64,000 nucleotides of DNA from Aromatoleum petrolei. Its GTDB lineage: Bacteria; Pseudomonadota; Gammaproteobacteria; Burkholderiales; Rhodocyclaceae. Positions within the stretch are counted from its first letter, which is position 1, and each line of letters begins with the position of its first letter. Shown here one piece after another: positions 6,081-38,163 of this stretch. The notes beneath the pieces are model-generated. The model was not told the origin of the DNA and did no database searches. It saw only the letters and a list, made by a program, of their open reading frames with translations. The stretch spans positions 4,286,501 to 4,350,500 of the forward strand of contig NZ_CP059560.1 in NCBI RefSeq assembly GCF_017894385.1, in the 5' to 3' direction. A program made the position numbers and the translations under genes.

Positions 6081-6092
6081 GGCGCGGCCTCC

Positions 6093-7784
6093 TTACAGCA
6101 TGACCCGACGGAAGTCGGCCAGCAGTTGCGCGAGATAGACGTTGAAGCGGGTCGCCAGCGCGCCGTCGATGACGCGGTGGTCGGCCGTGAGCGACATCGG
6201 CAGCGTCAGGCGCGGCACGAACTGCTTGCCGTCCCACACCGGCTTCATCACCGACTTGTTGACGCCAAGGATGGCGACTTCCGGCGCATTGACGATCGGT
6301 GCGAAGTAGGTGCCGCCGATGCCGCCCAGCGAGGAGATCGTGAAGCACGCGCCCGACATGTCGGCAGGGCCGAGCTTGCCGTCGCGGGCCTTCTTCGCGA
6401 GTTCGCCGGTTTCCGCGGCGATCTCGAACACGCTCTTCTTGTCGGCGTTCTTCACCACCGGCACGACCAGGCCGTTGGGGGTGTCCGCCGCGAAGGCGAT
6501 GTTGAAGTACTTCTTGTAGACCAGGCTCAGTTCACCACCACTCGCATCGAGCGAAGTGTTGAACTCGGGGAATTCCTGCAGCGCGCGCACCGAGGCCTTG
6601 ATGATGAAGGCGAGCATCGTGAGCTTCTTGCCCGACTTCTCGTTCTCCTTGTTCATCAGAACGCGGAAGGCTTCGAGGTCGGTGATGTCGGCGTCTTCGT
6701 GATAGGTCACGGCCGGGATCATGACCCAGTTGCGGGCGAGGTTCTGGCCGGAGATCTTCTTGATGCGCGACAGCGGCTTGGTTTCGATCTCGCCGAACTT
6801 GGAGAAATCGACCTTCGGCCAGGGCAGCAGATCGAGGCCACCACCGAGGCTGGCGCCGGCGGCGGCCGGAGCGGCCTTGCCCGGGACGACGCCGGTCTGC
6901 ATCGCGCCCTTCACGAAGGCGATGACGTCTTCCTTGAGGATGCGGCCCTTTGGACCGGTGGCCTTGACCTGCGCGAGATCGACGCCGAGCTCACGTGAGT
7001 AGGCACGAACCGACGGGCTTGCGTGCACCTTGCCGCCGAGGGTGACGGCGGACGGCGCAACGGCAACGGCCGGGGCGGAGAGCGCCGACTGGCTGAAGGC
7101 GGCAGTCGAAGCGGCGGGAGTAGCTTGAACGGCGGTGGTTCCGGCTGCGGCAGGGGCCGATGGGGCGGCCGGGGCTGCTGCGGCGGCTGGAGCGGCGCCC
7201 GCACCTTCGACGACGATCAGCACGCTGCCCATCGACACTTTGTCGCCGAGCTTGACCTTCACTTCCTTGACGACGCCGGCGGCCGAGGACGGCACGTCCA
7301 TCGTCGCCTTGTCCGATTCGAGGGTCGCGATCGCGTCATCGACCTTGATCGTGTCACCCACCTTCACGAAGAGCTCGATGACCGGTACGTCGGTGAAGTC
7401 GCCGATGTCCGGGACCGTGACTTCGATCGGGCCGGAGGCAGCCTGCGCTGCGGCGGGCGCAGCAGCGGGTGCAGCAGCCGGTGCCGGTGCTGCGGCAGGA
7501 GCCGGAGCAGCCGCGGGGGCAGGCGCTTCGGCGGCTGCGCCGTTGGCCGTCTCGACCTTGATCAGCACGCTGCCTTCGCCGACCTTGTCGCCGAGGGCGA
7601 CCAGCACTTCCCTGACCACGCCGGCGGCCGAGGAGGGCACATCCATCGTCGCCTTGTCCGATTCCAGGGTCGCGATCGCGTCATCGATCTTGATGGTGTC
7701 GCCGACCTTTACGAACAGCTCGATGACCGGGACGGAATCGAAATCGCCGATGTCCGGGACCTTCACTTCAATGATTTGGCTCAT
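6093..7784 (-). CDS. aceF: Dihydrolipoamide acetyltransferase (PDH E2)
   Basis: This 563-residue E2 core transfers acetyl groups from lipoamide to CoA. It has two lipoyl domains (about residues 1-77 and 118-193), each with ESDKATMD; the modified lysines are K44 and K159. Ala/Pro-rich swinging-arm linkers separate them. A peripheral subunit-binding domain spans about residues 255-290 (PSVRAYSRELGVDL, GPKGRILKEDV). The C-terminal catalytic domain carries TADHRVIDGA with the active-site His and Asp. The DNA encoding its lipoyl domains is nearly the same as that of lpdA, giving three near-copies within 2 kb. It lies 21 bp after aceE in the same operon. Confidence 0.97.
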   Translation of the reverse strand: MSQIIEVKVPDIGDFDSVPVIELFVKVGDTIKIDDAIATLESDKATMDVPSSAAGVVREVLVALGDKVGEGSVLIKVETANGAAAEAPAPAAAPAPAAAPAPAAAPAAAPAAAQAASGPIEVTVPDIGDFTDVPVIELFVKVGDTIKVDDAIATLESDKATMDVPSSAAGVVKEVKVKLGDKVSMGSVLIVVEGAGAAPAAAAAPAAPSAPAAAGTTAVQATPAASTAAFSQSALSAPAVAVAPSAVTLGGKVHASPSVRAYSRELGVDLAQVKATGPKGRILKEDVIAFVKGAMQTGVVPGKAAPAAAGASLGGGLDLLPWPKVDFSKFGEIETKPLSRIKKISGQNLARNWVMIPAVTYHEDADITDLEAFRVLMNKENEKSGKKLTMLAFIIKASVRALQEFPEFNTSLDASGGELSLVYKKYFNIAFAADTPNGLVVPVVKNADKKSVFEIAAETGELAKKARDGKLGPADMSGACFTISSLGGIGGTYFAPIVNAPEVAILGVNKSVMKPVWDGKQFVPRLTLPMSLTADHRVIDGALATRFNVYLAQLLADFRRVML

Positions 7785-7805
7785 GTTCTTGTCTCCCTCG
7801 CTCTC

Positions 7806-10487
7806 TTAGACGCTCATCGGGTTGGGCTTGGCGGGATCGAGGTTGTACTTCAGCAGGGCTGCGGCAACCTTGTCGCGCGGGATGAGGCCGTCGTCGGCGA
7901 GCGACTTCAGGGCGGCAACGGTGACCCAGTGGCGGTCGACTTCGAAGAAGTGGCGCAGCTTCTCGCGGGTGTCCGAGCGGCCGAAACCGTCGGTGCCGAG
8001 CGTCGTGTAGGTGCGCTTGACGAAGGGACGGATCTGCTCCGAGAACATGCGGATGTAGTCGGTCGCGGCGATCACCGGGCCGGTGGTGTCCTTCAGGCAC
8101 TTCTCGACGTGCGACAGGCGCGGCGCCTCCATCGGGTGCAGCATGTTCCAGCGCTCGGCGTCCTGACCGTCGCGGGCCAACTGGTTGAAGCTCGGGCAGC
8201 CCCAGATGTCGGCTTCGACGCCCCAGTCGTTCTTCAACAGGTCGGCCGCGGCGATGACTTCGCGGAAGATCGTGCCGGAACCCAGCAGCTGCACGCGCAG
8301 CTTGCCTTCGGCGCCCTTACGGAACGCGTACATGCCCTTGATGATGTCGGCCGCAGTGTCAGACCCTTCGCCGGCAGGCATCTCGGGATGCTCGTAGTTC
8401 TCGTTCATCACCGTGATGTAGTAGTACACGTCCTGCTGTTCGGCGAACATGCGGCGCATGCCGTCCTGCACGATGACGGCGACTTCGTACTGGAAGGTCG
8501 GGTCATAGCTGACGCAGTTCGGGATCATGTTGGCCATCACGAGGCTGTGGCCGTCCTCGTGCTGCAGGCCTTCGCCGTTCAGCGTCGTGCGGCCGGCGGT
8601 GCCGCCGATCAGGAAGCCGCGGGTACGCTGGTCCGCAGCCGCCCAGCACAGGTCCATCGTGCGCTGCAGGCCGAACATCGAATAGAAGATGTAGAACGGC
8701 ACCATCTGCACGCCATGCACCGAGTAGGCGGTGCCGGCGGCGATCCAGTCGGCCATCGCACCGGCTTCGTTGATGCCTTCCTGCAGCACCTGGCCGGTCT
8801 TCGATTCCTTGTAGAACATCAGCTGGTCATGGTCTTCCGGAACGTAGTTCTGGCCTTGCTGGTTCCAGATGCCGTACTGGCGGAACATGCCTTCCATGCC
8901 GAAGGTGCGCGACTCGTCCGGGACGATCGGCACGATGTGGCGGCCGATCTGCTTGTCCTTGAGCAGCGTGTTCATGATGCGCACGACCGCCATCGTCGTC
9001 GACAGCTCGCGGCCTTCGCCCGAAGCCTTCAGCAGCGCGGCGAAGTTTTCGAGCGCGGGCACGGCGAGCGGATCGGCCGTGCGGCGGCGCTGCGGCAGGA
9101 AGCCGCCGAGCGACATGCGCCGCTCCATCATGTACTTGTACTCGGGCGAATCCTCGGCGAACTTCAGGTAGGGCAGCTCGGCGAGCTTGTCGTCCGGCAC
9201 GGGGATGCCGAAGCGGTCGCGGAAGCGGCGGATCCCCTCTTCATCGAGCTTCTTCTGCTGGTGCGAGATGTTCATCGCCTCGCCGGCCTGGCCCATGCCG
9301 AAGCCCTTGACGGTCTTGGCGAGGATCAGCGTCGGGGCGCCCTTGTGCTCGACGGCGGCCTTGTAGGCCGAGAAGATCTTGAACAGATCGTGGCCGCCGC
9401 GGTTCAGGTGCCAGACCTCGTCGTCGGTCCAGTCGGCGACCATCGCCTTCAGTTCCGGCGTGTTGAAGAAGTGCTCGCGCACGTAGGCGCCGTTCTTCGC
9501 CTTGAAGGTCTGGTACTCGCCGTCGACGCATTCCATCATGCGCTTCTTCAGCAGCCCCTTGGTGTCGCGGGCGAGCAGGGCATCCCAGTGCGTACCCCAG
9601 ATCAGCTTGATGACGTTCCAGCCGGCGCCGCGGAACTCGGCTTCCAGTTCCTGGATGATCTTGCCGTTGCCGCGCACCGGGCCGTCCAGGCGCTGCAGAT
9701 TGCAGTTGATGACGAAGACCAGGTTGTCGAGCTTTTCACGCGCGGCCATGCCGATTGCGCCCAGCGATTCGACCTCGTCGGTCTCGCCGTCGCCGAGGAA
9801 GGCCCAGACCTTCCGGTCCTGCGCCTTGGCCATGTCACGGCTGTCCATGTACTTCATGAAGCGCGCGGCGTAGATCGCGCACAGGGGGCCGAGGCCCATC
9901 GACACCGTCGGGAACTGCCAGAAGTCCGGCATCAGCCAGGGGTGCGGATAGGACGAGATGCCCTTGCCGTCGACTTCCTGGCGGAAGTTGTCCATCTGCT
10001 CTTCGCTCAGGCGACCGAGCATGAAGGCGCGCGCATAGACGCCCGGGACCGAGTGGCCCTGGAAGAAGATCAGGTCGCCGCCGTGCTCTGCGCTCGGGGC
10101 GCGCCAGAAATGCGAGAAACCCACGTCATAGAGCGCTGCCGCCGACGCGAAGGAGGCGATGTGGCCGCCAACGTTCGTGTGTTTGTTCGCACGCACCACC
10201 ATCGCCATCGCATTCCAGCGGATGTACGAATGGAGCTTGATCTCCATGTCCGGGTTGCCCGGGTACTTCGGCTGCTGGCTGGCGGGGATGGTGTTGATGT
10301 ACTGGGTCGTCGCCGAATAGGGGATGTCGATCCCTTCTTCGCGGCCGGCTTCGATCAGCTTCTCGATCAGGAAATGCGCGCGGTCCTGGCCTTCATTGGC
10401 GACGACGGCCTGGAGGGCGTCCAGCCATTCCTGCGTCTCGATCGTGTCCGGGTCCGTCTGCAGCGTTACGTTGGGTGTCGCGGCCAT
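7806..10487 (-). CDS. aceE: Pyruvate dehydrogenase E1 component, homodimeric
   Basis: This 893-residue thiamine-diphosphate enzyme decarboxylates pyruvate and acetylates E2. The cofactor-binding motif GDGETDE is near residue 228, and the length is typical of the single-chain AceE of gammaproteobacteria and betaproteobacteria (about 890). The start at 10487 (MAATPNVTLQ) follows a GGAGA ribosome binding site. It is first in the aceE-aceF-lpdA operon and has a promoter-like sequence about 110 bp upstream. No PdhR-type regulator is adjacent. A separate E1-alpha gene of the heterotetrameric type begins at the far end of the window, so the genome seems to have two routes of this kind. Confidence 0.97.
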   Translation of the reverse strand: MAATPNVTLQTDPDTIETQEWLDALQAVVANEGQDRAHFLIEKLIEAGREEGIDIPYSATTQYINTIPASQQPKYPGNPDMEIKLHSYIRWNAMAMVVRANKHTNVGGHIASFASAAALYDVGFSHFWRAPSAEHGGDLIFFQGHSVPGVYARAFMLGRLSEEQMDNFRQEVDGKGISSYPHPWLMPDFWQFPTVSMGLGPLCAIYAARFMKYMDSRDMAKAQDRKVWAFLGDGETDEVESLGAIGMAAREKLDNLVFVINCNLQRLDGPVRGNGKIIQELEAEFRGAGWNVIKLIWGTHWDALLARDTKGLLKKRMMECVDGEYQTFKAKNGAYVREHFFNTPELKAMVADWTDDEVWHLNRGGHDLFKIFSAYKAAVEHKGAPTLILAKTVKGFGMGQAGEAMNISHQQKKLDEEGIRRFRDRFGIPVPDDKLAELPYLKFAEDSPEYKYMMERRMSLGGFLPQRRRTADPLAVPALENFAALLKASGEGRELSTTMAVVRIMNTLLKDKQIGRHIVPIVPDESRTFGMEGMFRQYGIWNQQGQNYVPEDHDQLMFYKESKTGQVLQEGINEAGAMADWIAAGTAYSVHGVQMVPFYIFYSMFGLQRTMDLCWAAADQRTRGFLIGGTAGRTTLNGEGLQHEDGHSLVMANMIPNCVSYDPTFQYEVAVIVQDGMRRMFAEQQDVYYYITVMNENYEHPEMPAGEGSDTAADIIKGMYAFRKGAEGKLRVQLLGSGTIFREVIAAADLLKNDWGVEADIWGCPSFNQLARDGQDAERWNMLHPMEAPRLSHVEKCLKDTTGPVIAATDYIRMFSEQIRPFVKRTYTTLGTDGFGRSDTREKLRHFFEVDRHWVTVAALKSLADDGLIPRDKVAAALLKYNLDPAKPNPMSV

Positions 10488-24357: not shown

Positions 24358-24433
24358 GGGCCGATAGCTCAGCTGGGAGAGCGCTGCGTTCGCAATGCAG
24401 AGGTCGAGGGTTCGATCCCCTTTCGGTCCACCA
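24358..24433 (+). tRNA. tRNA-Ala (anticodon CGC)
   Basis: This 76-nt tRNA folds into a full cloverleaf. The acceptor arm GGGCCGA pairs with TCGGTCC (one G-T pair), and the discriminator base A is followed by an encoded CCA. The D arm is GCTC/GAGC, the anticodon arm is CTGCG/TGCAG, and the T arm contains GGTTCGATCCC-type sequence. The anticodon loop TTCGCAA gives CGC, which reads the alanine codon GCG. Its 3' end marks the left boundary of the accessory island. Confidence 0.95.
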
Positions 24434-24823: not shown

Positions 24824-25099
24824 CTAATGGCGGTTGATACGCTTGTAGCGGTGGCCCACCGTGATGACCTTCCCACTGGTCGACACCACGACGTAGGCGT
24901 CTAGCTGGTGCTCGAGCTGCTTGGCGCGCCGCTCGCCGACGTGCTTGAGCAATTGGATGCGTGACGACTTGTCGAAATAGCAGATGACGGCGCCCCTGTG
25001 GTCGTACGCCTTGCGTCCCCATTCGATTAGGTAGTCGATCATTGATTCGGAGATGGCCCTTTGCTGCATCTGGGCGACCGCGTGATTGCTGAGCTGCAT
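24824..25099 (-). CDS. DUF4258-like small protein
   Basis: This 91-residue protein begins QLSNHAVAQMQQRAISESMID, a pattern (His, then xMxxR) typical of DUF4258 and related small toxin-like folds. It ends VSTSGKVITVGHRYKRI. DUF4258 proteins are often found near toxin-antitoxin or phage genes, and their activity is unproven. A GGGAG ribosome binding site precedes the start. It is transcribed divergently from the nuclease-helicase gene, and the shared intergenic region has two copies of the island dyad. No antitoxin-like partner gene is adjacent. Confidence 0.6.
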   Translation of the reverse strand: MQLSNHAVAQMQQRAISESMIDYLIEWGRKAYDHRGAVICYFDKSSRIQLLKHVGERRAKQLEHQLDAYVVVSTSGKVITVGHRYKRINRH

Positions 25100-25148: not shown

Positions 25149-25169
25149 GTGGCTCACAGATTGAGCCAC
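25149..25169. promoter_or_regulatory. Island operator copy 1
   Basis: GTGGCTCA and TGAGCCAC are perfect 8-bp inverted arms around a 5-base spacer. It lies between the divergent DUF4258-like and nuclease-helicase genes. It is one of five copies of the dyad in the island. Confidence 0.75.
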
Positions 25170-25195
25170 ATCTCTTGAGGGGACAAACTAAATAC

Positions 25196-25214
25196 TGGCT
25201 CATTTCATGAGCTA
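25196..25214. promoter_or_regulatory. Island operator copy 2
   Basis: TGGCTCA, 5 bases, TGAGCTA (6 of 7 arm positions pair). Its centre is 46 bp from copy 1 and 45 bp upstream of the nuclease-helicase start. Confidence 0.75.
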
Positions 25215-25258
25215 CGTACCGTGGTAACGTCACGATCTTTATGGCATAGGAAAACCGG

Positions 25259-28200
25259 ATGCAAAAACCGGCTGGAGAAATCGTCCTATCGGCGAGCGAC
25301 CTCTCCTTTTTCGCGGAATGCGCCCATCGGACCTGGCTTGATCGGTTGCATTTGGACCATCCGATGGAGAAGGCCGAGGATGATGAGCAAGCCCTGCTCA
25401 TCCAGGGAAAGGGATACGAGCACGAGGAGCGGTTCTTCGCGACTCTAAAGGAAGGGGCGAGCTCCTGTGTCGAGATCGACTCCGACTGGTCGCTGGAAAG
25501 GAAGCTCGAAGCGACGCGGGCAGCCATCCTCGACGGCGCGCAAGTGATCTACCAAGCGACGCTCAAGCGGGGCAACCTGATGGGGCACGCGGACTTTCTC
25601 GTGCGATCCGGCCGGGGAAGCGGGGGGCAATGGCTGTACGAGGTCGCGGATACCAAGCTGGCCCGCTCGACCAAAGCCAAGTTCCTTCTCCAGCTCTGTT
25701 TTTATTCCGACCTGCTCTCGGATATCACCGGCGAACTGCCCCTCCACATGCACGTCGAACTGGGGAACGGAAAGCGGGAGAGCTTCAAGGTCAGCGACTA
25801 TTTCCACTACTACCGCTCGCTGTTGGGCCGGCTGCTCGACTACCTCGCACCCTATCCCGACGGGACGGAAGTACCTTATCCGTCACCTTGCGATCACTGC
25901 GACTTGTGCCCCTGGCGGGAACGTTGCGCGGCCAAGCGGATCGATGACGACCACCTTTCCGCCGTCGCGGGAATCACTCGTCAGCAGATAGCCCGCCTCG
26001 AAGCCGCCGACATTCGTACCGTGGCCGCACTCGGGGCGCTCCCTGCCTCGCCGACCTTCCCCAAGATCGCGCCCGAGACCTTGGGGAAGTTACACGAACA
26101 AGCGCGTCTGCAGATCATTGAACGGGAGATGGGCAGCCAGGTTGTGGAGTTGCTTCCCATCGAAGCGGGAGCGGTTCGTGGATTCGCACGCCTTCCGAGG
26201 CCAGACGATGGAGACTTGTTCTTCGACATGGAAGGCGACCCCATGGAGGAAGGGGGCCTCGAATACCTGTTTGGCTTGTATTACTTCGATGCCGGGAAGC
26301 CCGTGTTCAAGGCGTTCTGGGCCCATACCCGCGAGGAAGAGCGGCTGGCTTTCACCGAGTTCATCGACTTCGTGATGGCCCGCAGGAGGGCGCATCCCGA
26401 CATGCACTTGTACCACTACGCGCACTACGAGAACGCGGCAATCAAACGCCTGATGACTTCGCACGGGGTTCGCGAATCCGCCGTGGACCGGTTGCTCCGC
26501 GAGGGCCGGTTGGTGGACCTGTACAAGGTCGTGCGGGAAGGCGTCCGCGTGTCGAAAGACAGTTACTCGATCAAGGCGATCGAGGCGTTCTATTCCGAGA
26601 AGCGCACCTCTGACGTGAAGAAGGCGACCGATAGCATCGTCGTCTACGAACAGTGGCGAGAATCCAAAGATCCCGCGCTCCTCGAATCCATCCGCAAGTA
26701 CAACGAGGAGGACTGCCGTTCGACCAGGCAACTGCGTGATTGGCTGCTGTCCTTGCGTCCCGACGAGCTGCCATGGTTCGAAGCGGCTGCCACCACAGCA
26801 TCGAAGCAACCGGCACGTGCGAAGTCCGACAAGACACAGGAGCACGAGAAGCTCCTGGAGGAGTTCCACGAGCGTCTGGTTGCGCATCCCGAAAACCCAG
26901 ATCTCGATCCGGAACTGGCTAAGCTGATCGACTCGCTCCTCGACTTCTACCGACGAGCAGCCAAGCCGCAGTGGTGGGCGCTATTCGACCGCCGAGAGGC
27001 GGAACTGGAAGAACTGATCGAGGAGCCGGAAGTGATCGGCGGCCTCTACGACCCTGAGTACGTTGGCGAAGGCGAGCGGTGCGGAACATACCGGTACCGC
27101 TATCCCGAGCAGGACTTCAAGGTGCGCTCCGGCGACCGAGCCGTTCGTCTCGACAACCTCAAAGAAGCCTTAGTCTGGAAAATCGACGAAGACGAGAATA
27201 CGGTTGAACTTGAGTTTCGCTTGGGTGACGGGGAGCTTGAGCCTCCCTCGTCAATGTCGGTCTCGATCGGTGCACCGGTCGACACCACCACGATGCAACG
27301 CGCCGTATTCGCTTTCGCGGAGTCCCTCGTCCAAGGAGGGAGCCGTTACAAGGCGGTCCGGGATTACCTGCAGCGGCGAACGCCGGACATCCGCGGGCTA
27401 GAGCCAGGCCAGCCAATCGTCGGGACGGACGCGGCGCCCCTCGCCGCCGCCATATCCGCGGTCGAACGGCTCGATTCTTCCTACCTCTTCATCCAGGGGC
27501 CGCCGGGAACAGGCAAGACCTACACGGGATCGCTTCTGATCGCTTCGCTGCTGAAGGCCGGGAAGCGGGTGGCCGTCTCGTCCAACAGCCACAAGGCTAT
27601 CAACAACCTTCTCGAGGCGGTCGACAAGCGGATGGAAGAGTCTGGGTGTTCCTACTTCGGGATCAAAAAGATATCGAAGGAGGAGCAGGCGGTCGAGAGC
27701 CGGTTCATCGCGAATTTCGATTCCGACAAAGCGATCCTCGAGGCGAACCCCGCGCCCCAACTTGTCGGGGGTACGGCCTGGACGCTCGCCAGGCCCGGTT
27801 TCAGGGATACGTTTGACTATCTGTTCATCGACGAGGCCGGTCAGGTTTCTCTGGCGAACACCATCGCGATGGGCATGTGCGCGAAGAACCTGATCCTGCT
27901 CGGGGACCAAATGCAGCTCGGGCAGCCGATTCAGGGCAGCCATCCCGGCAGGAGCGGGGAGTCGGCGTTGGAGTACCTCCTTGACGGAGAGTCCACAATT
28001 TCAGCGGACAGAGGAATATTCCTGGGGGTGACCTACCGGATGCATCCAGATGTCTGTAGGTTCATATCCGACGCGATCTATGACTCCCGTCTTCTATCGG
28101 CGGATTCGACGCTCCAGCAGCGGCTTGTCCTGGACGGTTCGGCTCACCCTGCCCTCCGTCCGACCGGGATCTGCTATTTCCCGATAGCGCACGAGGCGTG

Positions 28201-28633
28201 CTCGCAACGGAGCGAAGAAGAGGCCGCCGCCGTGCGGGAAATCGTTGAAAGTCTCCTCAGACAGCGGTATCGGGACGGCCAGAGTCGGGAGCATGCTTTC
28301 TCCCTCGAAAACATCTTGGTCGTGGCACCGTACAACATGCAGGTCAATCTGCTGAAACGGGTTCTGCCCAATGGCGCCCGGGTCGGCACGGTCGACAAGT
28401 TCCAAGGGCAGGAGGCAGAAGTGGTCATCGTATCGATGGCGACCTCAAGCGCAGAATACCTGCCGAGGAATCTGGATTTCCTGTTCAGTAAGAACCGGAT
28501 CAACGTGGCCGTCTCCCGGGCGAAATGCCTCTCTGTCGTTCTTTTCAGCCCGAAACTCCTGAATCTACGCTGCAAGTCGCCCGGCGAAATGGCACTCGTG
28601 AACACCTTCGCCTACCTGAGAGGAGAGAACTGA
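25259..28633 (+). CDS. TM0106-family RecB-like nuclease fused to SF1 (Dna2/Upf1-like) helicase
   Basis: This 1124-residue fusion has an N-terminal RecB-like nuclease part at about residues 1-230. That part ends in a cysteine cluster (CDHCDLCPWRERC) that probably binds an iron-sulfur cluster. An RNase H-like exonuclease domain at about 310-500 has FFDMEGDP, HYAHYEN and YNEEDC, the three acidic motifs of DnaQ-like enzymes. The C-terminal SF1 helicase at about 720-1110 has Walker A (GPPGTGKT), Walker B (FIDEAGQ), LLGDQMQLGQP, VDKFQGQEAEVV and VAVSRAKCL. It should unwind and degrade nucleic acid. It is first in an operon with a WYL regulator, 1 bp apart, under two copies of the island operator. 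Confidence 0.9.
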   Translation: MQKPAGEIVLSASDLSFFAECAHRTWLDRLHLDHPMEKAEDDEQALLIQGKGYEHEERFFATLKEGASSCVEIDSDWSLERKLEATRAAILDGAQVIYQATLKRGNLMGHADFLVRSGRGSGGQWLYEVADTKLARSTKAKFLLQLCFYSDLLSDITGELPLHMHVELGNGKRESFKVSDYFHYYRSLLGRLLDYLAPYPDGTEVPYPSPCDHCDLCPWRERCAAKRIDDDHLSAVAGITRQQIARLEAADIRTVAALGALPASPTFPKIAPETLGKLHEQARLQIIEREMGSQVVELLPIEAGAVRGFARLPRPDDGDLFFDMEGDPMEEGGLEYLFGLYYFDAGKPVFKAFWAHTREEERLAFTEFIDFVMARRRAHPDMHLYHYAHYENAAIKRLMTSHGVRESAVDRLLREGRLVDLYKVVREGVRVSKDSYSIKAIEAFYSEKRTSDVKKATDSIVVYEQWRESKDPALLESIRKYNEEDCRSTRQLRDWLLSLRPDELPWFEAAATTASKQPARAKSDKTQEHEKLLEEFHERLVAHPENPDLDPELAKLIDSLLDFYRRAAKPQWWALFDRREAELEELIEEPEVIGGLYDPEYVGEGERCGTYRYRYPEQDFKVRSGDRAVRLDNLKEALVWKIDEDENTVELEFRLGDGELEPPSSMSVSIGAPVDTTTMQRAVFAFAESLVQGGSRYKAVRDYLQRRTPDIRGLEPGQPIVGTDAAPLAAAISAVERLDSSYLFIQGPPGTGKTYTGSLLIASLLKAGKRVAVSSNSHKAINNLLEAVDKRMEESGCSYFGIKKISKEEQAVESRFIANFDSDKAILEANPAPQLVGGTAWTLARPGFRDTFDYLFIDEAGQVSLANTIAMGMCAKNLILLGDQMQLGQPIQGSHPGRSGESALEYLLDGESTISADRGIFLGVTYRMHPDVCRFISDAIYDSRLLSADSTLQQRLVLDGSAHPALRPTGICYFPIAHEACSQRSEEEAAAVREIVESLLRQRYRDGQSREHAFSLENILVVAPYNMQVNLLKRVLPNGARVGTVDKFQGQEAEVVIVSMATSSAEYLPRNLDFLFSKNRINVAVSRAKCLSVVLFSPKLLNLRCKSPGEMALVNTFAYLRGEN

Positions 28634-28634
28634 A

Positions 28635-29621
28635 GTGGCCCAAGCGGCACGCTTGCGCGACATTGTCGCCATCTTGGAAGCGAGAAAACATCCTGTGCCT
28701 CGCGATGTTTTACTGAACGAGTTGGATGTCTCGCTTGCGACGTTCAAACGCGACATAGAGGTGTTGAGGGACCAGTTCCAAGCGCCGATCACCTGGTTGC
28801 CCGGCGAGGCCGGACGCGAACGCGGGTACGTCCTGGAGGACAAAGGCTGGTCGTCGGGTAAGCTGGGATTGCCGAGGGCCTGGTTTACGTCGAGCGAGAT
28901 CCACGCCCTCTTGATGATAGATACGCTGGCCAGCCACATCGCGCCCGGCTTGCTGACGGAACATCTGCAACCTCTCATCACGCGGATAACGCTGGCACTG
29001 AGCGCGGCGGACGACACGCCCGAGGATATCCGCTCACGCATCCAGATCCTGGCGTCGGCAGCCCGTCGGCGGGATGCGGCCCATTTCGAGAACGTGGCCC
29101 AGGCGACGGTGCGCAGGAACTGCCTGGAGATCCTCTACTTCACCAAGAGCCGGAACGAGCGTAATAGGCGGGTCGTCTCCCCGCAGCGCCTCATCCATTA
29201 CAAGGAAAACTGGTACCTGGTCGCCTGGTGCCACAAGGCGGAAGGACCGAGGGTCTTTGCATTGGACGGCGTCGAGGAAGCGAAAGTGCTGAAGGAACCC
29301 GCGGTCGAGGCGGACAAGGCGGCAATCGACGCCATGGTCGGGAAGGACTTCGGGATCTATTCGGGCGGCGACCGAAAATGGGCGAAGTTGCGGTTCTCCG
29401 CGCTGCAAGCGCGGTGGGTCGAGGCCGAAGTCTGGCATCCGGAACAGACGGCTTCCGTCCAGGAGGACGGATCTCTGGTGCTCGAGGTGCCATACAGCGA
29501 CCCGCGCGAACTCCTGCTCGACGTCCTCAAGTTCGGCCCCGAGGCGGAGGTGCTCGAACCACCCGAACTCCGGGAGGAAGTGCGCTCGCGCCTCCGCCGG
29601 GCCCTGTCGCAGTATGAATGA
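28635..29621 (+). CDS. WYL-domain transcriptional regulator 1
   Basis: This 328-residue protein has an N-terminal winged helix at about residues 5-60 (VPRDVLLNELDVSLATFKRDIEVL pattern), a WYL domain at about 140-225 with ENWYLVAWCH, and a C-terminal WCX extension to about 325. WYL regulators bind inverted repeats and are frequent repressors or activators of phage-defence loci, where the WYL pocket senses a nucleic acid or nucleotide ligand. The GTG start is 1 bp after the nuclease-helicase stop, so the two are co-translated. It is clearly related to the second WYL protein at 32774-33757. It is the best candidate binder of the island dyads. Confidence 0.9.
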   Translation: MAQAARLRDIVAILEARKHPVPRDVLLNELDVSLATFKRDIEVLRDQFQAPITWLPGEAGRERGYVLEDKGWSSGKLGLPRAWFTSSEIHALLMIDTLASHIAPGLLTEHLQPLITRITLALSAADDTPEDIRSRIQILASAARRRDAAHFENVAQATVRRNCLEILYFTKSRNERNRRVVSPQRLIHYKENWYLVAWCHKAEGPRVFALDGVEEAKVLKEPAVEADKAAIDAMVGKDFGIYSGGDRKWAKLRFSALQARWVEAEVWHPEQTASVQEDGSLVLEVPYSDPRELLLDVLKFGPEAEVLEPPELREEVRSRLRRALSQYE

Positions 29622-29626
29622 TTCAG

Positions 29627-29645
29627 TGGCTCATTATGTGAGCTA
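29627..29645. promoter_or_regulatory. Island operator copy 3
   Basis: TGGCTCA, TTATG, TGAGCTA: the same arms as copy 2. It lies 38 bp upstream of the HNH gene and just after the WYL 1 stop. Confidence 0.75.
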
Positions 29646-29683
29646 CAGCGATCGTTACGATAGCGATATCGACGCGTTACGGC

Positions 29684-30661
29684 ATGGATTCGTGGAAAGC
29701 GTCCCACGGAAATTTCACGATTGGAGCGAATGAATATATGGATGCTTGGGAAATTGCACTGAACAAAATAAACGAATTGGTTCTGGCAAAAAGGTTAAAG
29801 AAGTCCGTACCGTCGAAGGAGGGTATGTGCTTTTTCGAATGCGACCAGGGGCAATTCGCTTTGGAAGTGCCTCGCCGCACTAGAGGCGTAAAAGGAGCGA
29901 AATTTTGGTTCTCATTTCCACCGTCGGTACCCCTCGGCATCGAGGTCGAAGAAAAAGCCCCAGGTGATGGCAGGAATAACAAACTTAACACGACTCCTGG
30001 CTCGCGCATGGGCGAGTCCTACGCATGTTGGAACATATTAGTCGGCAATTCCAAGGAGAAACCACGCCAGACCATCGAAGCCATATTGTTCGGATTGAGC
30101 GGATCTGCGGAGTCATACGTGCCGGACATGGAGATCGAAGCCGGGATTCAATTTAGTAATGAACACGATCTCGAAAACGAGAAGCCAGAGTCAGCTAAAG
30201 AACTTACGGTCTCGGAAAGTGACCAGAAAGGACTGGAAAGCGATACGGTTAGCCTTAGCACGAGCGAACGGGAAGCCGTCGTCAAGGTTCGGTTTGGCCA
30301 GGGCGCCTTCCGATCTTCGCTCCTAGATATCGCTGGCGACGTCTGCTGGATGTCCGGTATCGAGGGGAAGGAACTGCTTATAGCCTCGCACATCCAGCCT
30401 TGGGCTCATTCCGAGAAGAATCGTGAAGCGAGAGGATGCCCCGACAACGGCCTACTGCTCTCATCACTTTGGGATGCAGCGTTCGACTCCGGACTGGTGA
30501 CATTCGACGAGGATTGGCGGGTAGTTTCGTCCCCCGCGCTCAGCGAGTCCGCGAAAAAGCACCTTGGGCTTCAGGAAGAAAAGTTTCTTCCAAAGAGTTT
30601 CAGAAATCCTCGACGTGCCGAGTATCTAGCTTACCACCGCGCGGTAGTTTTCAAGCGATAA
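29684..30661 (+). CDS. HNH endonuclease
   Basis: This 325-residue protein has a C-terminal HNH_2-type domain at about residues 215-285 (CWMSGIEGKELLIASHI, then a PDNGLLLSSLWDAAFD stretch). The pattern is that of predicted restriction-type nucleases. The N-terminal ~200 residues are of unknown type and could be the target-recognition part. Codon use and base composition are more AT-rich than in core genes, a sign of transfer. It has its own copy of the island operator upstream, so it is co-regulated with the nuclease-helicase. The ATG at 29684 was chosen because the body of the protein follows directly. Confidence 0.82.
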   Translation: MDSWKASHGNFTIGANEYMDAWEIALNKINELVLAKRLKKSVPSKEGMCFFECDQGQFALEVPRRTRGVKGAKFWFSFPPSVPLGIEVEEKAPGDGRNNKLNTTPGSRMGESYACWNILVGNSKEKPRQTIEAILFGLSGSAESYVPDMEIEAGIQFSNEHDLENEKPESAKELTVSESDQKGLESDTVSLSTSEREAVVKVRFGQGAFRSSLLDIAGDVCWMSGIEGKELLIASHIQPWAHSEKNREARGCPDNGLLLSSLWDAAFDSGLVTFDEDWRVVSSPALSESAKKHLGLQEEKFLPKSFRNPRRAEYLAYHRAVVFKR

Positions 30662-30706
30662 CGGTTGCCTAGACATTCGAGTAATCCATCAAAGGAGCTG
30701 CCCTAT

Positions 30707-31150
30707 ATGGGAAAAAAGATAATCGTCTCGTCTGACGAGATTGCGGTCTGCCCGAAGTGCAACCACCAGTTTTCGCTCGACCAGGGTATTGCCCGCCATA
30801 CGATCGAGCGTTATGAGCAGGAGTTCTCGGACGCCCTAGCGAGCGAGAAGAAGGAGCTCGAGGAGAGTTTGGCCAGGGAGGCCGAGCGGAAGGCCAACAA
30901 GCTCTTTGCAGAACAGATCGCCAAGCTGAAGGAAGACTTGGCCGACGTCCGTAAGGCCGAGCAGGATGCCCGCGCCCTGGTCACGAAAGCCGAAGCCGAT
31001 GCGAAGGCCAAAGCAGCTGAGGCGTTTGCCCAGGAAAAGTCGGCCCTCACCGAGGAACTCACCGCGAAGAACGCGCAACTCGCCTCCTTTCGCGAGCAGG
31101 AATTGGCACTTCGCCGCCAGAAGCAGGTACTTGAGGATAAGCAGGCCAAC
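30707..31150 (+). pseudogene. DUF2130 (COG4487) family gene, 3' end lost to IS insertion
   Basis: The intact first 148 codons start MGKKIIVSSDEIAVCPKCNHQF, with a CPKC zinc pair. A long Ala/Glu/Lys-rich coiled coil follows. This is the N-terminal half of DUF2130 proteins, which normally run to over 400 residues with a C-terminal nuclease-like domain. The reading frame enters the IS left repeat at 31151 and ends inside it. The rest of the gene is not found on the far side of the IS, so it was deleted, not just interrupted. An AAAGGAG ribosome binding site precedes the ATG, and it follows the HNH gene by 45 bp, probably as one operon. Confidence 0.8.
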
Positions 31151-31175
31151 TGGCCTGCCCCCGATTCTCCGGACA
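31151..31175 (+). repeat. IS left terminal inverted repeat
   Basis: 25 bp, perfectly complementary to the right repeat at 32376-32400. Confidence 0.95.
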
Positions 31176-31208
31176 CATTGCATGGCAACATGTGTCTAGG
31201 AGGAATCG

Positions 31209-31502
31209 ATGCGAACAAGAAGGAAGTTCTCGGACGAGTTCAAGCGCGAGGCGGTGCGTTTGGCAACGCAGCCGGGTATGACGGCGACAGCGGTCGCCCG
31301 AGATCTGGGACTCGAGCGCAGCGTGCTGCGCCGATGGATGTTGAATGCGGAAGAAGGTCGCACCGATTTGACGCCTGGCAGGCCTCTGAAGAGCGACAGC
31401 CAGGCGGAACTTGAGCAACTGCGGCGCGAACTGGCGCGGGTGAAGATGGAGCGCGATATCTTAAAAAAGGCGCTCGGCTACTTCGCGAAGGACCCGACGT
31501 GA
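31209..31502 (+). CDS. IS3-family transposase OrfA
   Basis: This 97-residue DNA-binding subunit has a helix-turn-helix in its first half (FSDEFKREAVRLA, VARDLGLERSVLRRWM). A leucine-zipper-like coiled coil at about residues 60-90 (LEQLRRELARVKMERDILKKAL) is used to pair with the transposase. The slippery heptamer A-AAA-AAG at 31463-31469 sits in the right phase for a -1 frameshift into orfB, which is open from there onward. The frameshift product would be the active OrfAB transposase. Confidence 0.93.
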   Translation: MRTRRKFSDEFKREAVRLATQPGMTATAVARDLGLERSVLRRWMLNAEEGRTDLTPGRPLKSDSQAELEQLRRELARVKMERDILKKALGYFAKDPT

Positions 31503-32365
31503 AGTTCGGCTTCGTTGCCAAACATCGGGCGGTGTGGCCGGTTCGGGTTCTATGTGAAGTGCTCGGAATTTCCCGCAGCGGCTTCTACGAATGGTTCAGT
31601 AGGCGGCCAAGCCCGCGTACCCGCGCCAACGAGAAGCTCACGGGGCTGATTCGGCAAAGCTTCGAAGCGAGCGATCGGACCTACGGTAGCCGACGTGTTT
31701 GGCACGACGTGCTTGCCTGGGGCGAGCACTGCGGCATTCATCGCGTTGCTCGCCTAATGAGGGCGGCCGGGCTGGCTGCGCGCAAGAAGCGTCGTCGCTC
31801 GCCCAACGATGCGGGCCTGCGGCCCGAACACAGCATTGCACCGAATCTGCTGCAGCGCGAGTTCGAGGCGGATGCGCCGAACAAGAAGTGGCTGGCCGAC
31901 TTCACGTACCTGTGGACCGACGAAGGCTGGCTATACGTTGCGGCCGTGCTGGACCTGTACTCGCGAAGAATTGTCGGCTGGTCAATGAAGGCGGAAATGA
32001 CTGCGCAACTGGTCATCGATGCGCTCTTGATGGCGGTCTGGCGGCGCGGTAAACCCAAGGAGCTGTTACACCATTCCGATCAGGGTAGCCAATACACCCG
32101 CGAAGACTTCCAGCGGCTGCTAGCCGACCAGGGCATCGTTTGCAGCATGAGTCGAAAGGGCAACTGCTGGGATAACGCCGCGATGGAGAGCTTCTTCTCC
32201 AGCCTCAAGACGGAACGTGCCGCGCGAAAGCGATATCCGACACGCGACGACGCTCGGGCGGACGTGTTCGACTACATTGAACGCTTCTACAATCCGCGGC
32301 GGCGTCACTCCGTGCTTGGATATCTCAGCCCGGTTCAGTTTGAAGAAAATATGGTGGCTGTGTAG
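31499..32365 (+). CDS. IS3-family transposase OrfB (rve integrase domain)
   Basis: This 288-residue frame carries the DDE catalytic core. The first Asp is in ADFTYLW, the second in HHSDQGSQY, and the Glu is in AAMESFFSSLKTE. An HTH_21-like segment lies at the N terminus. It ends with the IS3 signature HSVLGYLSPVQFEE. Its own GTG start overlaps the orfA stop, but it is most likely made by -1 frameshifting as OrfAB. All catalytic residues are present, so the element may still be active. Confidence 0.95.
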   Translation: MKFGFVAKHRAVWPVRVLCEVLGISRSGFYEWFSRRPSPRTRANEKLTGLIRQSFEASDRTYGSRRVWHDVLAWGEHCGIHRVARLMRAAGLAARKKRRRSPNDAGLRPEHSIAPNLLQREFEADAPNKKWLADFTYLWTDEGWLYVAAVLDLYSRRIVGWSMKAEMTAQLVIDALLMAVWRRGKPKELLHHSDQGSQYTREDFQRLLADQGIVCSMSRKGNCWDNAAMESFFSSLKTERAARKRYPTRDDARADVFDYIERFYNPRRRHSVLGYLSPVQFEENMVAV

Positions 32366-32375
32366 CTACCGAAAC

Positions 32376-32400
32376 TGTCCGGAGAATCGGGGGCAGGCCA
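32376..32400 (-). repeat. IS right terminal inverted repeat
   Basis: 25 bp, perfect inverse complement of 31151-31175. Confidence 0.95.
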
Positions 32401-32603
32401 CTCAAAGAGCCTGAAAGCGCGATCAGGTAGAGGCGGTCGTCCCGGATTTCCCAGGTTCCCACGTAGCCTCGCCAGAGTGCCGTGTTGCGGTATGCAAAAT
32501 CCGGCCGGCTACCAGCGAGCGCAAAGTAATCCTCAAGAGGTTCGGAGCACATCCGGACCTGGCGTTCCCGGTACTCAAGTTTTTCACCAATCTGGGCCGT
32601 CAT
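32401..32603 (-). pseudogene. Hypothetical protein gene, 3' end cut by IS
   Basis: The first ~67 codons run from MTAQIGEKLEYRERQVRM to LIALSGSLS, then the frame enters the IS right repeat. The fragment has a Cys, a SRPDFAYRNTALWRGYVGTW stretch and a beta-rich LYLI segment. I remember similar small uncharacterised proteins in proteobacteria but know no function for them. Upstream, 32604-32734 on the minus side shows nothing clear. With the truncated DUF2130 gene on the other side of the IS, it shows that DNA was lost at the insertion. Confidence 0.6.
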
Positions 32604-32734
32604 TGCGCCTCCGAAGTGCGGTCTCGAACTGTTGAGAGAAGACTTTCCCTGAGCGGCTGCCTGATAGTATGCAGGATGCGCACGCTATAAGCATTGCTCG
32701 CTTGTCATCACTCGACCTAAAGTAGCACCCGCGA

Positions 32735-32751
32735 GGCTCACCGGGTGAGCC
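32735..32751. promoter_or_regulatory. Island operator copy 4
   Basis: GGCTCA, CCGGG, TGAGCC: perfect 6-bp arms with the same 5-base spacer. It ends 22 bp before the WYL 2 start, so it fits autoregulation. Confidence 0.75.
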
Positions 32752-32773
32752 AGCCGACAACAAGAAACGGCCC

Positions 32774-33757
32774 ATGGATCGCACCGAACGCTTCTACAAA
32801 ATCGACCAACTCATCACCGAGCGGCGGCTCGTCGCCTTCAAGGACCTGCTCACGGCGCTGGAAGTGTCGCCTGCCACCTTGAAGCGCGACCTCGAATATA
32901 TGAGGAACCGCCTGAGGGCGCCCATCGTGTGGGACCGGGACGCCGGCGGCTACCGTTTCGACAAGCTCGAGGCCGCCGCGGGGGCGCAGTACGAGCTGCC
33001 GGGGTTGTGGTTCTCCTCACAAGAGATCCATGCGCTGCTCACCATGCAGCACCTGCTGGCGAGCCTAGATCCGGGCGGACTGCTCGCGCCGCACGTCGCC
33101 CCCTTGCAGGCGCGGCTCAACGGCCTGCTTGGGACGACCGACGATCCGGCCGAGGAGATCCGCCGCCGGGTGCTGATCTTTGGGGTGGGCAAGCGAAACA
33201 TGAAGCTCGCGCACTTCGAGAAGGTGGGCTCGGCGCTGCTGCGAAGAAAACGGATTCGGGTGAGTTACTTCGCGCGCGGCACGGGCGAAATCACCGAGCG
33301 CGAGTTATCGCCACAGCGCCTGGTGCACTACCGTGAAAATTGGTACCTCGATGCCTGGTGCCACCTGCGTGGGGCCTTGCGCAACTTCAGTGTGGATGCC
33401 GTCCAGCGGATCGAGAGCCTGGAGACGCCTGCCCGTGAGGTACCGCGCCGCACGGTTGAGCGCGAGCTCGGTCCTGGTTACGGCATCTTCGTCGGGCGCG
33501 ACCAGGACGTTCGCTGGGCGCGCCTCGCTTTCAGTGCGGAGCGGGCGCGCTGGGTCGCTTCGGAACACTGGCATCCGCAGCAGAAGGGCACGCTGCAAGA
33601 GGACGGTCGTTACGTGCTGGAGCTTCCCTACACCGACGATCGCGAACTGCTGATGGACATCCTCAAGTACGGCGCCGACGTCACGGTGCTCGCGCCCGAA
33701 ACGCTGCGCGAGCGAGTGGTCGCGGAGCTGGCACGCATGAACGACCTGTATCGCTGA
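32774..33757 (+). CDS. WYL-domain transcriptional regulator 2
   Basis: This 327-residue homologue of WYL regulator 1 has the same layout: an N-terminal winged helix (FKDLLTALEVSPATLKRDLEYM pattern), a WYL domain with ENWYLDAWCH, and a C-terminal WCX part (WHPQQKGTLQEDGRYVLELP). The matching stretch of regulator 1 is WHPEQTASVQEDGSLVLEVP, showing close relation. The ATG at 32774 is the natural start. It lies between island operator copies 4 and 5. Two paralogous regulators with a common site spectrum could cross-regulate; which one binds is unknown. Confidence 0.9.
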   Translation: MDRTERFYKIDQLITERRLVAFKDLLTALEVSPATLKRDLEYMRNRLRAPIVWDRDAGGYRFDKLEAAAGAQYELPGLWFSSQEIHALLTMQHLLASLDPGGLLAPHVAPLQARLNGLLGTTDDPAEEIRRRVLIFGVGKRNMKLAHFEKVGSALLRRKRIRVSYFARGTGEITERELSPQRLVHYRENWYLDAWCHLRGALRNFSVDAVQRIESLETPAREVPRRTVERELGPGYGIFVGRDQDVRWARLAFSAERARWVASEHWHPQQKGTLQEDGRYVLELPYTDDRELLMDILKYGADVTVLAPETLRERVVAELARMNDLYR

Positions 33758-33770
33758 TCCACGGGTCGAC

Positions 33771-33789
33771 TGGCTCATCTGGTGAGCTT
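33771..33789. promoter_or_regulatory. Island operator copy 5
   Basis: TGGCTCA, TCTGG, TGAGCTT (arms pair at 5 of 7 positions; the inner GCTCA/TGAGC is intact). It lies 48 bp upstream of the DUF932 gene. Confidence 0.65.
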
Positions 33790-33837: not shown

Positions 33838-34844
33838 ATGGCACACAACATCGGCGAGATGTTCTACTGCGGTGAAGAGCCATGGCACCGACTTGGAAAG
33901 CGCCTCGGCCGTCCCGCCAATCTGGAGGAAGCTCTCGAACATGGCGGCCTTGACTGGGAAGTCGGCACTGTACCTATCGTGCCCGCGGGCGAGCCTGCCT
34001 CCGAGATTCCCCACCGGGTCGCCGTCGTGCGCAAGGATCGGAAGCCGGGCGAAGCCGGCCGGGGGTGATCGGCGTCGTTCATCCCGGTTTCCGGCCACTG
34101 CAGAACCGGGCGGGCGCGGAAATGTTCGATGCGGTCCTCGGCCAGGGGCAGCCCATCTACCACACCGGTGGCTACCTTAAGAACGGCGAAGTCATCTGGT
34201 TGTTGGCGAGGCTCCCCGAGCACATCCAGGTGCGCGGGAACGATGTGCTGGAAACCTACCTCCTCTTCACCAACAGCCACGACGGTTCAGTAGCCATTGA
34301 CATCCGGCTCACCACGGTGCGCGTCGTCTGCCAGAACACCTTGTCGCTGGCTCTGCACAAGAAGGCAGTCGGCAAGGTCTTCCGGCGCGCGCATGACGGG
34401 CGCTACGAATTGTTGAAGGAGCAGGCGAAGGTGTTCTTCGACTTCTGCGTGAAGCAGAGCCAGGAAACGCAGGTGCTCTTTGCCCGCCTCGCGCAAACCG
34501 AATGCGACGACAAGGCGTTTGAAACCTTCCTGACACAACTTTTGCCAGACCCCACACGACCCGTCACGGCGGGCAGCAACCCCCAGGTGGAACGCGCCTG
34601 GCAGACCCGGCTGGCCACCGCCCGGGCGACTCGCGCGCAGGTGTTGAGCGTGCACCGTGCTGGCATTCCCGCTCGCGCTCTTGAGCCTGAGGACAAGACC
34701 TGGTGGGGCGCGCTCAACACCATCACCGGCTGGGTCGATCACGTACAGGATACCGACAGCGAACACTATGCTCACATCCTGTTTGGGGCGGGCGACCGCA
34801 TCAAGACGAACGCGCTAGATCGGATTCAGGCGATGATGGCCTGA
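33838..34844 (+). pseudogene. DUF932 (phage/plasmid-like, TIGR03299 type) gene with frameshift
   Basis: The N-terminal part starts MAHNIGEMFYCGEEPWHRLG and stops at 34068. The rest continues in another frame from 34065 to 34844 (IGVVHPGFRPLQNRAGAEMF onward). The break falls in a run of five G at 34061-34065. Adding one G restores the family's continuous reading (R-G-V-I-G-V-V). DUF932 proteins are common on plasmids, integrative elements and phages; their role is unknown. The full-length product would be about 335 residues. The change may be a real mutation, a sequencing error at the homopolymer, or less likely recoding. An AAGGA ribosome binding site precedes the ATG. Confidence 0.8.
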
Positions 34845-37372: not shown

Positions 37373-37669
37373 GTGATGGCTGCTATCGCATCCTCTCCTT
37401 CCGCCCGGTCTGCCCGCTTGGGGCTACGCGCCACTCACGAACAGGAAGTGGTGTTGCGCCGCGCCGCCGAGGTGGCGCATAAATCCCTGACCAACTTCAT
37501 CCTGGACAGCGCCTGCTTGGCCGCCGAGCAGACTTTGCTGGACCAGCGCCTGTTTATGGTCTCCGGTAGTCAGTACCAAGCCCTGATGGATTTGCTGGAA
37601 CAACCGGAGCAGCCCAATGAAGGCTTGCGTGATCTGTTTTCGCGCAAGGCGCCTTGGGATGCGAAGTGA
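37373..37669 (+). CDS. DUF1778 (TacA-like) antitoxin
   Basis: This 98-residue protein has an N-terminal ribbon-helix-helix (RLGLRATHEQEVVLRRAAEVAHKSL pattern) and a C-terminal tail (SRKAPWD) that in this family neutralises the partner toxin. It binds DNA as a dimer and represses its own operon. The start may be the GTG at 37373 or the ATG at 37376. It overlaps the GNAT toxin gene by 4 bp (GTGA), the typical order of these pairs. Confidence 0.88.
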   Translation: MMAAIASSPSARSARLGLRATHEQEVVLRRAAEVAHKSLTNFILDSACLAAEQTLLDQRLFMVSGSQYQALMDLLEQPEQPNEGLRDLFSRKAPWDAK

Positions 37670-38163
37670 CATTGCGCGGACCTGAACCCCTGAGCATCCA
37701 ACATCGGCTGGACGGATTCGACTGTGGCAAACTGGCCTTGAACGACTGGCTGCTGCGTCACGCCCGGCAGGCCCAGGGCAGCGGCTCAGCCAAGACCTTC
37801 GTCGTGGCCGATGATGACCGGGTAGCAGGCTATTTCAGTTTAACCGTCGGTCAGATCGATACGCTGGACGCGCCCGAGCGCATCCGAAAAGGGATGGGAC
37901 AGTACCCGTTGCCGGTGGTGATTCTGGCGCGGCTGGCGGTTTCGGCGCGAGATCAGGGGCGAGGCATAGGCTTTGGTCTGCTGCAGGATGCGATCCGACG
38001 CACGATGCTGATTGCCGAGCAAGCCGGCATCCGGGCGATGCTGACCCACCCCATCGATGAAGACGCGGCGGGGTTCTACACCCGGTTCGGGTTCAGCGCC
38101 TCACCGCTGCGTGAGCAGCAACTGCTGTTGCTCCTGAAGGATGCCCGTCGCTGGGTACGCTGA
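37666..38163 (+). CDS. GNAT-family toxin (TacT-like)
   Basis: This 165-residue acetyltransferase has the GNAT acetyl-CoA loop ARLAVSARDQGRGIG (about residues 88-102), an AVAGYFSLT-like strand (residues 58-70 region) and a C-terminal AGFYTRFGF, all diagnostic of DUF1778-linked toxins. Characterised members acetylate charged aminoacyl-tRNA and stop translation. The GTG at 37666 overlaps the antitoxin stop; the longer TTG start at 37654 is less likely. Both partners look intact. Such pairs stabilise islands after integration. Confidence 0.88.
   Translation: MTLRGPEPLSIQHRLDGFDCGKLALNDWLLRHARQAQGSGSAKTFVVADDDRVAGYFSLTVGQIDTLDAPERIRKGMGQYPLPVVILARLAVSARDQGRGIGFGLLQDAIRRTMLIAEQAGIRAMLTHPIDEDAAGFYTRFGFSASPLREQQLLLLLKDARRWVR

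Follow-up and report, generated by a model that had tools for sequence, protein, structure and literature searches.

A conserved inverted repeat as the very probable operator of a WYL regulator subfamily with two members in one Aromatoleum petrolei island

Introduction

Among regulators that carry a WYL domain, BrxR, CapW, PafBC and DriD are the described systems closest to the proteins considered here. BrxR proteins of Acinetobacter and E. fergusonii recognise half-sites of 10-11 bp placed 5 bp apart; repression was demonstrated for the E. fergusonii protein, in whose island two such boxes occur. CapW, a repressor of the cyclic oligonucleotide-based antiphage signalling system (CBASS), binds palindromes that overlie the -10 region, and both CapW and BrxR are reported to repress until single-stranded DNA (ssDNA) is bound (PMC13373217). 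PafBC, which is a heterodimer, and DriD are ssDNA-responsive activators linked to DNA damage (PMC11804915). Here, a stretch of 64,000 bases of the Aromatoleum petrolei genome (contig NZ_CP059560.1, positions 4,286,501 to 4,350,500; the window hereafter) was analysed, in which an earlier note had described an inverted repeat, or dyad, used five times in an island that encodes two WYL regulators, designated WYL1 (28635..29621, + strand) and WYL2 (32774..33757, + strand). The dyad is, on the comparative evidence presented below, very probably an operator bound by WYL proteins of the subfamily to which both regulators belong, in which an N-terminal winged helix-turn-helix (wHTH) is followed by WYL and WCX domains.

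Results

All five inverted repeats described between positions 25149 and 33789 are present, each with a 5-base spacer. Dyad 1, which is perfect, occupies positions 25150-25168 within the 21-bp sequence GTGGCTCACAGATTGAGCCAC (25149-25169), and together with dyad 2 (25196-25214), 46 bp away, lies upstream of a nuclease-helicase gene on the + strand and a divergent DUF4258 gene on the - strand. Dyad 3 (29627-29645) stands between the WYL1 stop codon and an HNH gene, and dyad 4 (32734-32752) is centred 31 bp ahead of the start codon of WYL2, an autoregulatory position. Dyad 5 (33771-33789), the weakest, lies between WYL2 and a DUF932 gene, upstream of the latter. The placement of the repeats in gaps before genes is as originally described, and the two WYL regulators are indeed paralogous, being 44% identical. 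The proposed consensus, TGGCTCA-N5-TGAGCYA, required qualification, since it is exact in three of the five copies, with dyad 4 starting AGGCTCA and dyad 5 ending TGAGCTT (one mismatch each). All five contain the core GGCTCA-N5-TGAGC without mismatch, the half-sites varying at their outer positions, and against GGCTCA-N5-TGAGCC the five show zero or one mismatch, the next three matches in the window having two. A search of the window alone that allows three mismatches performs at chance level (30 of 100 shuffles reach the same count), and it is the near-exact core that is decisive. As calculated from the coordinates, all five dyad centres are 31-60 bp from the nearest start codon.

The dyad is also rare in the genome of 5,407,396 bases, where GGCTCANNNNNTGAGC matches seven distinct sites, five of them in the island, compared with none for a reversed-pattern control. 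Of the two other matches, one overlaps the end of a gene for a sigma factor and the other the start of a gene within a cluster for cytochrome oxidase (both named by eye). With a 16-position consensus, GTGGCTCA-N5-TGAGCCAC, all four sites found genome-wide at up to two mismatches are inside the island and none is outside. At three mismatches 19 further sites appear (11 in all for the reversed control), and the fifth island site, with four mismatches to this consensus, falls outside that list. The dyads are therefore real and, at a stringency of up to two mismatches, confined to the island in this genome, where the motif was looked for outside WYL-linked loci and is not common.

By domain content, and by the fold predicted for WYL2, both regulators are wHTH-WYL-WCX proteins. 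The WYL and WCX domains score above the Pfam cut-offs in each, and HTH_11 reaches 24.8 bits in WYL1 against a cut-off of 25. The WYL2 model has helices at residues 3-17, 22-29 and 33-45 and strands at 51-54 and 59-62, and a predicted recognition helix of the form S-x-A-T-x-K-R-D, which corresponds to model helix 33-45, is common to WYL1 (SLATFKRD) and WYL2 (SPATLKRD).

Whether the dyad accompanies such proteins elsewhere was examined in two sets of genomes. A scan of 250 genomes of the order gave 106 matches to WYL1, including two from the genome itself, and 100 of the other 104 form the first set, with G030 (truncated) and G189, G066 and G110 (low-scoring) left out; these 100 proteins share 30-61% identity with WYL1, and for 99 of them the score with WYL2 is the higher. 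The class set consists of 88 loci outside the order but in the same class (28 of 30 returned by the search plus 60 fetched), leaving out the locus itself, G015 (already in the first set), the genome's own WYL1 entry and a further 12 matches, most of them truncated or with the lowest scores. Every 6-mer palindrome with spacers of 0-12 within about 300 bp was then counted blind. GGCTCA-N5 ranked first in the first set (24/100 loci), the next best, shifted registers aside, being the related GTCTCA-N5 in four loci, while no pattern exceeded three in the far flanks. It ranked first again in the class set (11/88), followed by a shifted register with four, and a spacer of 5 won in both sets. When searched for directly within 700 bp, the dyad was found at up to two mismatches in 63/100 first-set loci versus 10/100 for the reversed control, and at zero or one mismatch in 47/100 versus none.

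When the search started from the motif, TGGCTCA-N5-TGAGCCA (14 positions) was found in 26 of the 250 genomes and the reversed pattern in one. Of the 31 distinct sites in the 250 genomes, 16, as assessed by hand, are within 5 kb of a WYL relative. The other 15 comprise ten in genomes with a WYL relative elsewhere and five in genomes where no WYL protein matches at 1e-40; the 13 of these far sites that were inspected are mixed, some intergenic and some intragenic.

The dyad is not tied to the nuclease-helicase as such, because three plasmid loci inspected from among 64 plasmid records with a relative of that protein (L179, L180 and L182) have no CTCA-N5-TGAG dyad, WYL genes being near in L179 and L182. 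Judged from this distribution, the dyad belongs to the WYL subfamily rather than to the cargo genes. L182, a Novosphingobium plasmid, has divergent genes for a WYL protein and a TM0106 nuclease-helicase (4902-9378) with no such dyad, and genes for an SOS-peptidase, AlkB, DinB and an error-prone polymerase are near. Phage records gave one distant WYL1 match, in an unannotated record, and IMG/VR gave one WYL2 relative (L178) and no WYL1 locus. The L178 contig has a perfect dyad at 5962-5980, where a type III-like methyltransferase gene (named by eye) diverges from the WYL2 relative, which is 63% identical over the 115 residues before the contig end. A Variovorax plasmid (L181) has the same operator with a WYL2-type gene beside a type III-like methyltransferase gene, likewise named by eye.

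Other neighbours of the dyad include RecC (L098, L064), an HNH protein (L154), DUF2130 (L051) and several proteins without a family match; in L064 the WYL gene of the genome is on another contig. In L098 (recC start 5750) and L290 (recC start 1501), which represent two genera of one family and have RecC proteins that are 37% identical, recC is preceded by a perfect GGCTCA-N5-TGAGCC dyad at 203 and 206 bp, respectively. The WYL gene of the L290 genome is on another contig, which hints at control in trans. A search for RecC in five other genomes of that family gave no match, and the recC locus of the A. petrolei genome has no dyad. In L096, L108 and L098 the sequence immediately after the dyad and ahead of the WYL or recC gene could, by eye, encode a short hydrophobic peptide of some 30 residues.

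The occurrence of the dyad depends on residues of the recognition helix. With the six closest WYL1 relatives (L046-L051, described below), WYL1 and WYL2 added to the 100 loci, the first set gives counts of 108, in which GCTCA-N5-TGAGC lies within 400 bp of 36/78 genes encoding Lys-Arg-Asp at positions 37-39 (WYL2 numbering) versus 1/30 of those that do not; in the class set the corresponding figures are 15/18 and 2/70. Moreover, the residue at position 37 varies together with the base beside CTCA, which is at ±7 from the dyad centre. Counting the most palindromic site for each locus, first-set loci with CTCA-N5-TGAG have G on both sides in 36/36 cases with Lys37 versus 1/15 with other residues, and the class set gives 15/16 with Lys37 versus 2/8 without. 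When all half-sites are counted, G is present in 79/80 with Lys37 and 9/34 without. Column 37 is the most informative on the ±7 base among 75 N-terminal columns. In the BrxR-DNA structure, Arg38 contacts ±6 and ±7 (PMC9122589). Taken together, the comparison strongly suggests that Lys37 specifies G at ±7.

Several observations detract from this code. Three loci without Lys37 have G on both sides (L136, L210 and L215) and one with Lys37 does not (L222), and 42 of the 78 first-set loci with Lys-Arg-Asp lack an exact GCTCA dyad in the surrounding 400 bp, which suggests that some operators are degenerate, more distant or absent. The sets also hold near relatives, with L099, L101, L103 and L117 from one genus and L138-L140, L142 and L143 from another, and a single genome contributes both L195 and L213 as copies. 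Lys37 and the base each change 11 times on a combined tree of 196 proteins. This leaves five independent pairs on strongly supported branches, of which on average 3.9 change the same way, 0.2 the opposite way and 0.9 show no difference, so that covariation of Lys37 and base, corrected for descent, is concordant but underpowered (median sign-test p 0.125). For Lys-Arg-Asp against dyad presence, 2.3 of five pairs go the same way (p 0.5), and the first set alone yields two independent pairs.

The placement of the dyads was compared further with that in the six closest WYL1 relatives returned by the genome scan (L046-L051), which are betaproteobacterial records of 10-17 kb each with proteins 61-91% identical to WYL1. 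The nuclease-helicase gene is upstream of the WYL1 relative in all six, with a matching DUF4258 gene beyond the dyads in four (L046, L047, L049 and L051). Dyads with up to two mismatches precede the helicase in 6/6 and follow WYL1 in 5/6 (not L050); at the same stringency a site corresponds in position to dyad 1 in L046, L047, L048, L049 and L051, and to dyad 3 in L046-L049 and L051. The two helicase-side dyads are 44-46 bp apart in the window, L046, L047 and L048, and 68 bp apart in L051. In alignments of the gaps the dyads stand out amid poorly conserved flanks, and the dyad behind WYL1 is constant while the gene that follows varies, encoding an HNH protein (window, L046), a NOV_C protein (L047) or DUF2130 (L051). 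DUF4258-like genes (29-37% identical) are also found near WYL2-type genes in L079, L080, L083, L084, L093 and L094.

The island starts directly behind a tRNA-Ala (CGC) gene (24358-24433), and a second copy of the last 12-20 bases of its 3' end, sought across the window as a boundary repeat, was not found. By family match, the genes around the dyads encode a DUF4258 protein (24824..25099, - strand), a TM0106-family RecB-like nuclease fused to a helicase (25259..28633, + strand), with WYL1 directly behind it, and an HNH endonuclease (29684..30661, + strand). DUF4258 is listed among the toxin families of the RelE/ParE superfamily (barnase-EndoU-colicin E5/D-RelE fold), with its activity unassigned there (PMC11980606). 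An N-terminal fragment of a DUF2130 gene follows (30707..31150, + strand), which is cut at an insertion sequence and is similar to genes in L046, L047, L048 and L051; the L051 counterpart is a DUF2130 gene, and the fragment itself has no Pfam match. The insertion sequence is an IS3-type element (31156-32395) with two overlapping transposase frames, 20-base terminal inverted repeats and GGCC on both sides, flanked on the left by the cut DUF2130 gene and on the right by an apparently truncated opposite-strand gene (32393-32603), a relative of which is near a WYL gene in L082. The DUF932/TIGR03299 gene (33839..34844, + strand) is spread over two reading frames (33839-34069 and 34065-34844) whose overlap lies close to a stretch of five G, an arrangement that may represent a split gene or a sequence error. 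The Pfam and TIGR03299 matches are in the second frame, the latter from model position 72, and a family search with the first frame alone gave no match. Genes for a TacA1-like antitoxin and a GNAT acetyltransferase adjoin at 37373-38163 in the layout of a toxin-antitoxin pair. PADLOC returned partial matches to helicase, Cas4, WYL and HNH models, with no complete system apparent. The nuclease-helicase, HNH, DUF4258, DUF2130 and DUF932 genes point to nucleic-acid attack or mobile-element biology; a defence role for the regulated genes is plausible, and a role in DNA damage equally so.

Discussion

The proposal that one or both WYL proteins bind the dyad is well supported by comparison across genomes. 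It rests on the blind enrichment of the dyad in two genome sets, its dependence on helix residues, the covariation of residue and base, the conserved placement in six relatives with the WYL1 module, and a half-site spacing equal to that of BrxR. Since the two proteins share the residues predicted to read the DNA, and this dyad accompanies each type in other genomes, both should bind all five sites, and it is probable that WYL1 and WYL2 do indeed both use the dyad.

We favour, as a likely account overall, an operator of the subfamily at which repression by WYL homodimers is lifted by ssDNA, with joint induction of the genes. A homodimer would put one recognition helix into each half-site, and occupancy of the dyads would block promoters, leading to repression, and to autoregulation at least of WYL2. 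By analogy with BrxR and CapW, ssDNA produced when phages attack or DNA is damaged would occupy the WYL domain and cause the protein to leave the operators, so that the genes for the nuclease-helicase, the HNH nuclease, DUF4258 and DUF932 would be expressed jointly. Repression seems somewhat the better supported net effect, the distance of 31-60 bp between dyad centres and start codons being as expected for promoter blocking, whereas for ssDNA as the signal, which is suggested by analogy, the chances appear even.

Conversely, the WYL proteins could bind the dyads but activate in the manner of DriD and PafBC, recruiting RNA polymerase to weak promoters when bound to ssDNA. The closest solved relative by sequence is PafBC, an activator (E 9.8e-28 with a profile), and a scan for sigma-70-like promoters around the sites found none, where 2.0 were expected from shuffles. 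The WYL2 model, which is of moderate confidence (mean predicted local distance difference test score, pLDDT, 72.8; predicted template modelling score, pTM, 0.45), matches DriD, BrxR-DNA, CapW-ssDNA and PafBC (VIA-align), with the highest Z for DriD (15.8 for the C-terminal part), and the presence of RecC beside the dyad in two genomes would fit a DNA-damage response. However, 15 of 21 dyads upstream of WYL genes have their centres 22-59 bp from the start as placed by alignment (31 bp for WYL2), which is close for an activator site, and symmetric sites spaced by 5 bp are those of the repressors BrxR-Acin and BrxR-Efer. Activation may still apply, because PafBC is nearest by sequence and no promoter was placed, but is distinctly the less probable mode.

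A second alternative, which we consider improbable, is that only one paralog uses the dyad here, the other being a passenger or having a different target, so that the island would hold two lookalike circuits. The two modules do occur apart, WYL1-type genes having their own dyads in L046-L051 and WYL2-type genes theirs, the outer positions of the half-sites differ among the five copies, and the dyad by DUF932 is weak, with more than three mismatches to the long consensus. Nevertheless, the ATxKRD helix is identical in WYL1 and WYL2, and the same core dyad goes with each type in other genomes. Finally, although two of the five dyads are directly behind WYL stop codons, transcription terminators or a repeat unrelated to WYL would be a most improbable explanation, given that dyad presence follows recognition-helix residues, the other three dyads are not behind a gene end and a scan of the window for terminators (stem-loop plus T run) detected none of the five.

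The proposed operation of the island by subfamily WYL proteins through a shared operator may now be set against the described systems. The likeness to BrxR extends to the predicted fold and to a symmetric operator with 5-bp half-site spacing, whereas the half-site sequence differs, GGCTCA and TGAGC being absent from the main text of the BrxR papers. Moreover, here one operator, tied to Lys37, occurs across many genera, and no bacteriophage exclusion (BREX) genes were identified. CapW is alike in predicted fold, but no CBASS genes were identified in the island by PADLOC. The two genes of PafBC lie side by side, whereas those of WYL1 and WYL2 are separate and 3 kb apart. Similarly, although PafBC, the closest by sequence, is a heterodimer (DriD being the top structural match), each WYL type here occurs without the other in the loci inspected. 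RptR, a repressor of restriction-modification islands, is alike in that a short palindromic site is conserved with the repressor across bacteria; its sites differ, being 6-bp TAGCTA sequences in direct repeats, and the available part of the report does not present it as a WYL protein (PMC12255303). WYL operator systems as such are already known, and the value of the present case is in an operator kept across genomes, a rule that links helix residue to base, and the probable joint use of one site type by two paralogs within a single island. No earlier report of this operator or code was found in the literature searched, which covered few subscription journals and no supplements.

With regard to its origin, the island appears to result from the meeting of two modules, both of which occur with this operator in other genomes, and not to have evolved as a single system. 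Module 1 consists of DUF4258, the nuclease-helicase and WYL1, and module 2 of WYL2-type genes, with the insertion sequence at the junction. The six WYL1-module loci have one WYL gene of this family apiece and no second, the module 1 helicase was found within about 6 kb in only one of the 100 order loci (L159, a partial match), and the pairing of WYL2 with DUF932 was not found in the other loci searched. Very likely, both halves brought the common operator with them, which need not have evolved inside the island, and if both proteins read the same bases, cross-regulation of the two modules would follow.

More tentatively, and at rather less than even likelihood, the dyad could be a portable regulatory address, kept across genera by a large WYL subfamily, such that nuclease and defence modules carrying it, even unlinked, answer to any resident WYL member of the subfamily. 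The family is large, with at least 7,995 relatives of WYL2 at E <= 1e-30 among 8,000 candidates scored, those listed having generic names (YafY family, WYL domain). A conserved operator, together with a helix residue that predicts its variants, would make the target genes of such regulators readable from genome sequence, and would provide a simple rule for which mobile nuclease or defence modules can be co-regulated. If true, the island of A. petrolei would consist of two modules with two interchangeable regulators that became one ssDNA-triggered switch by meeting in one genome.

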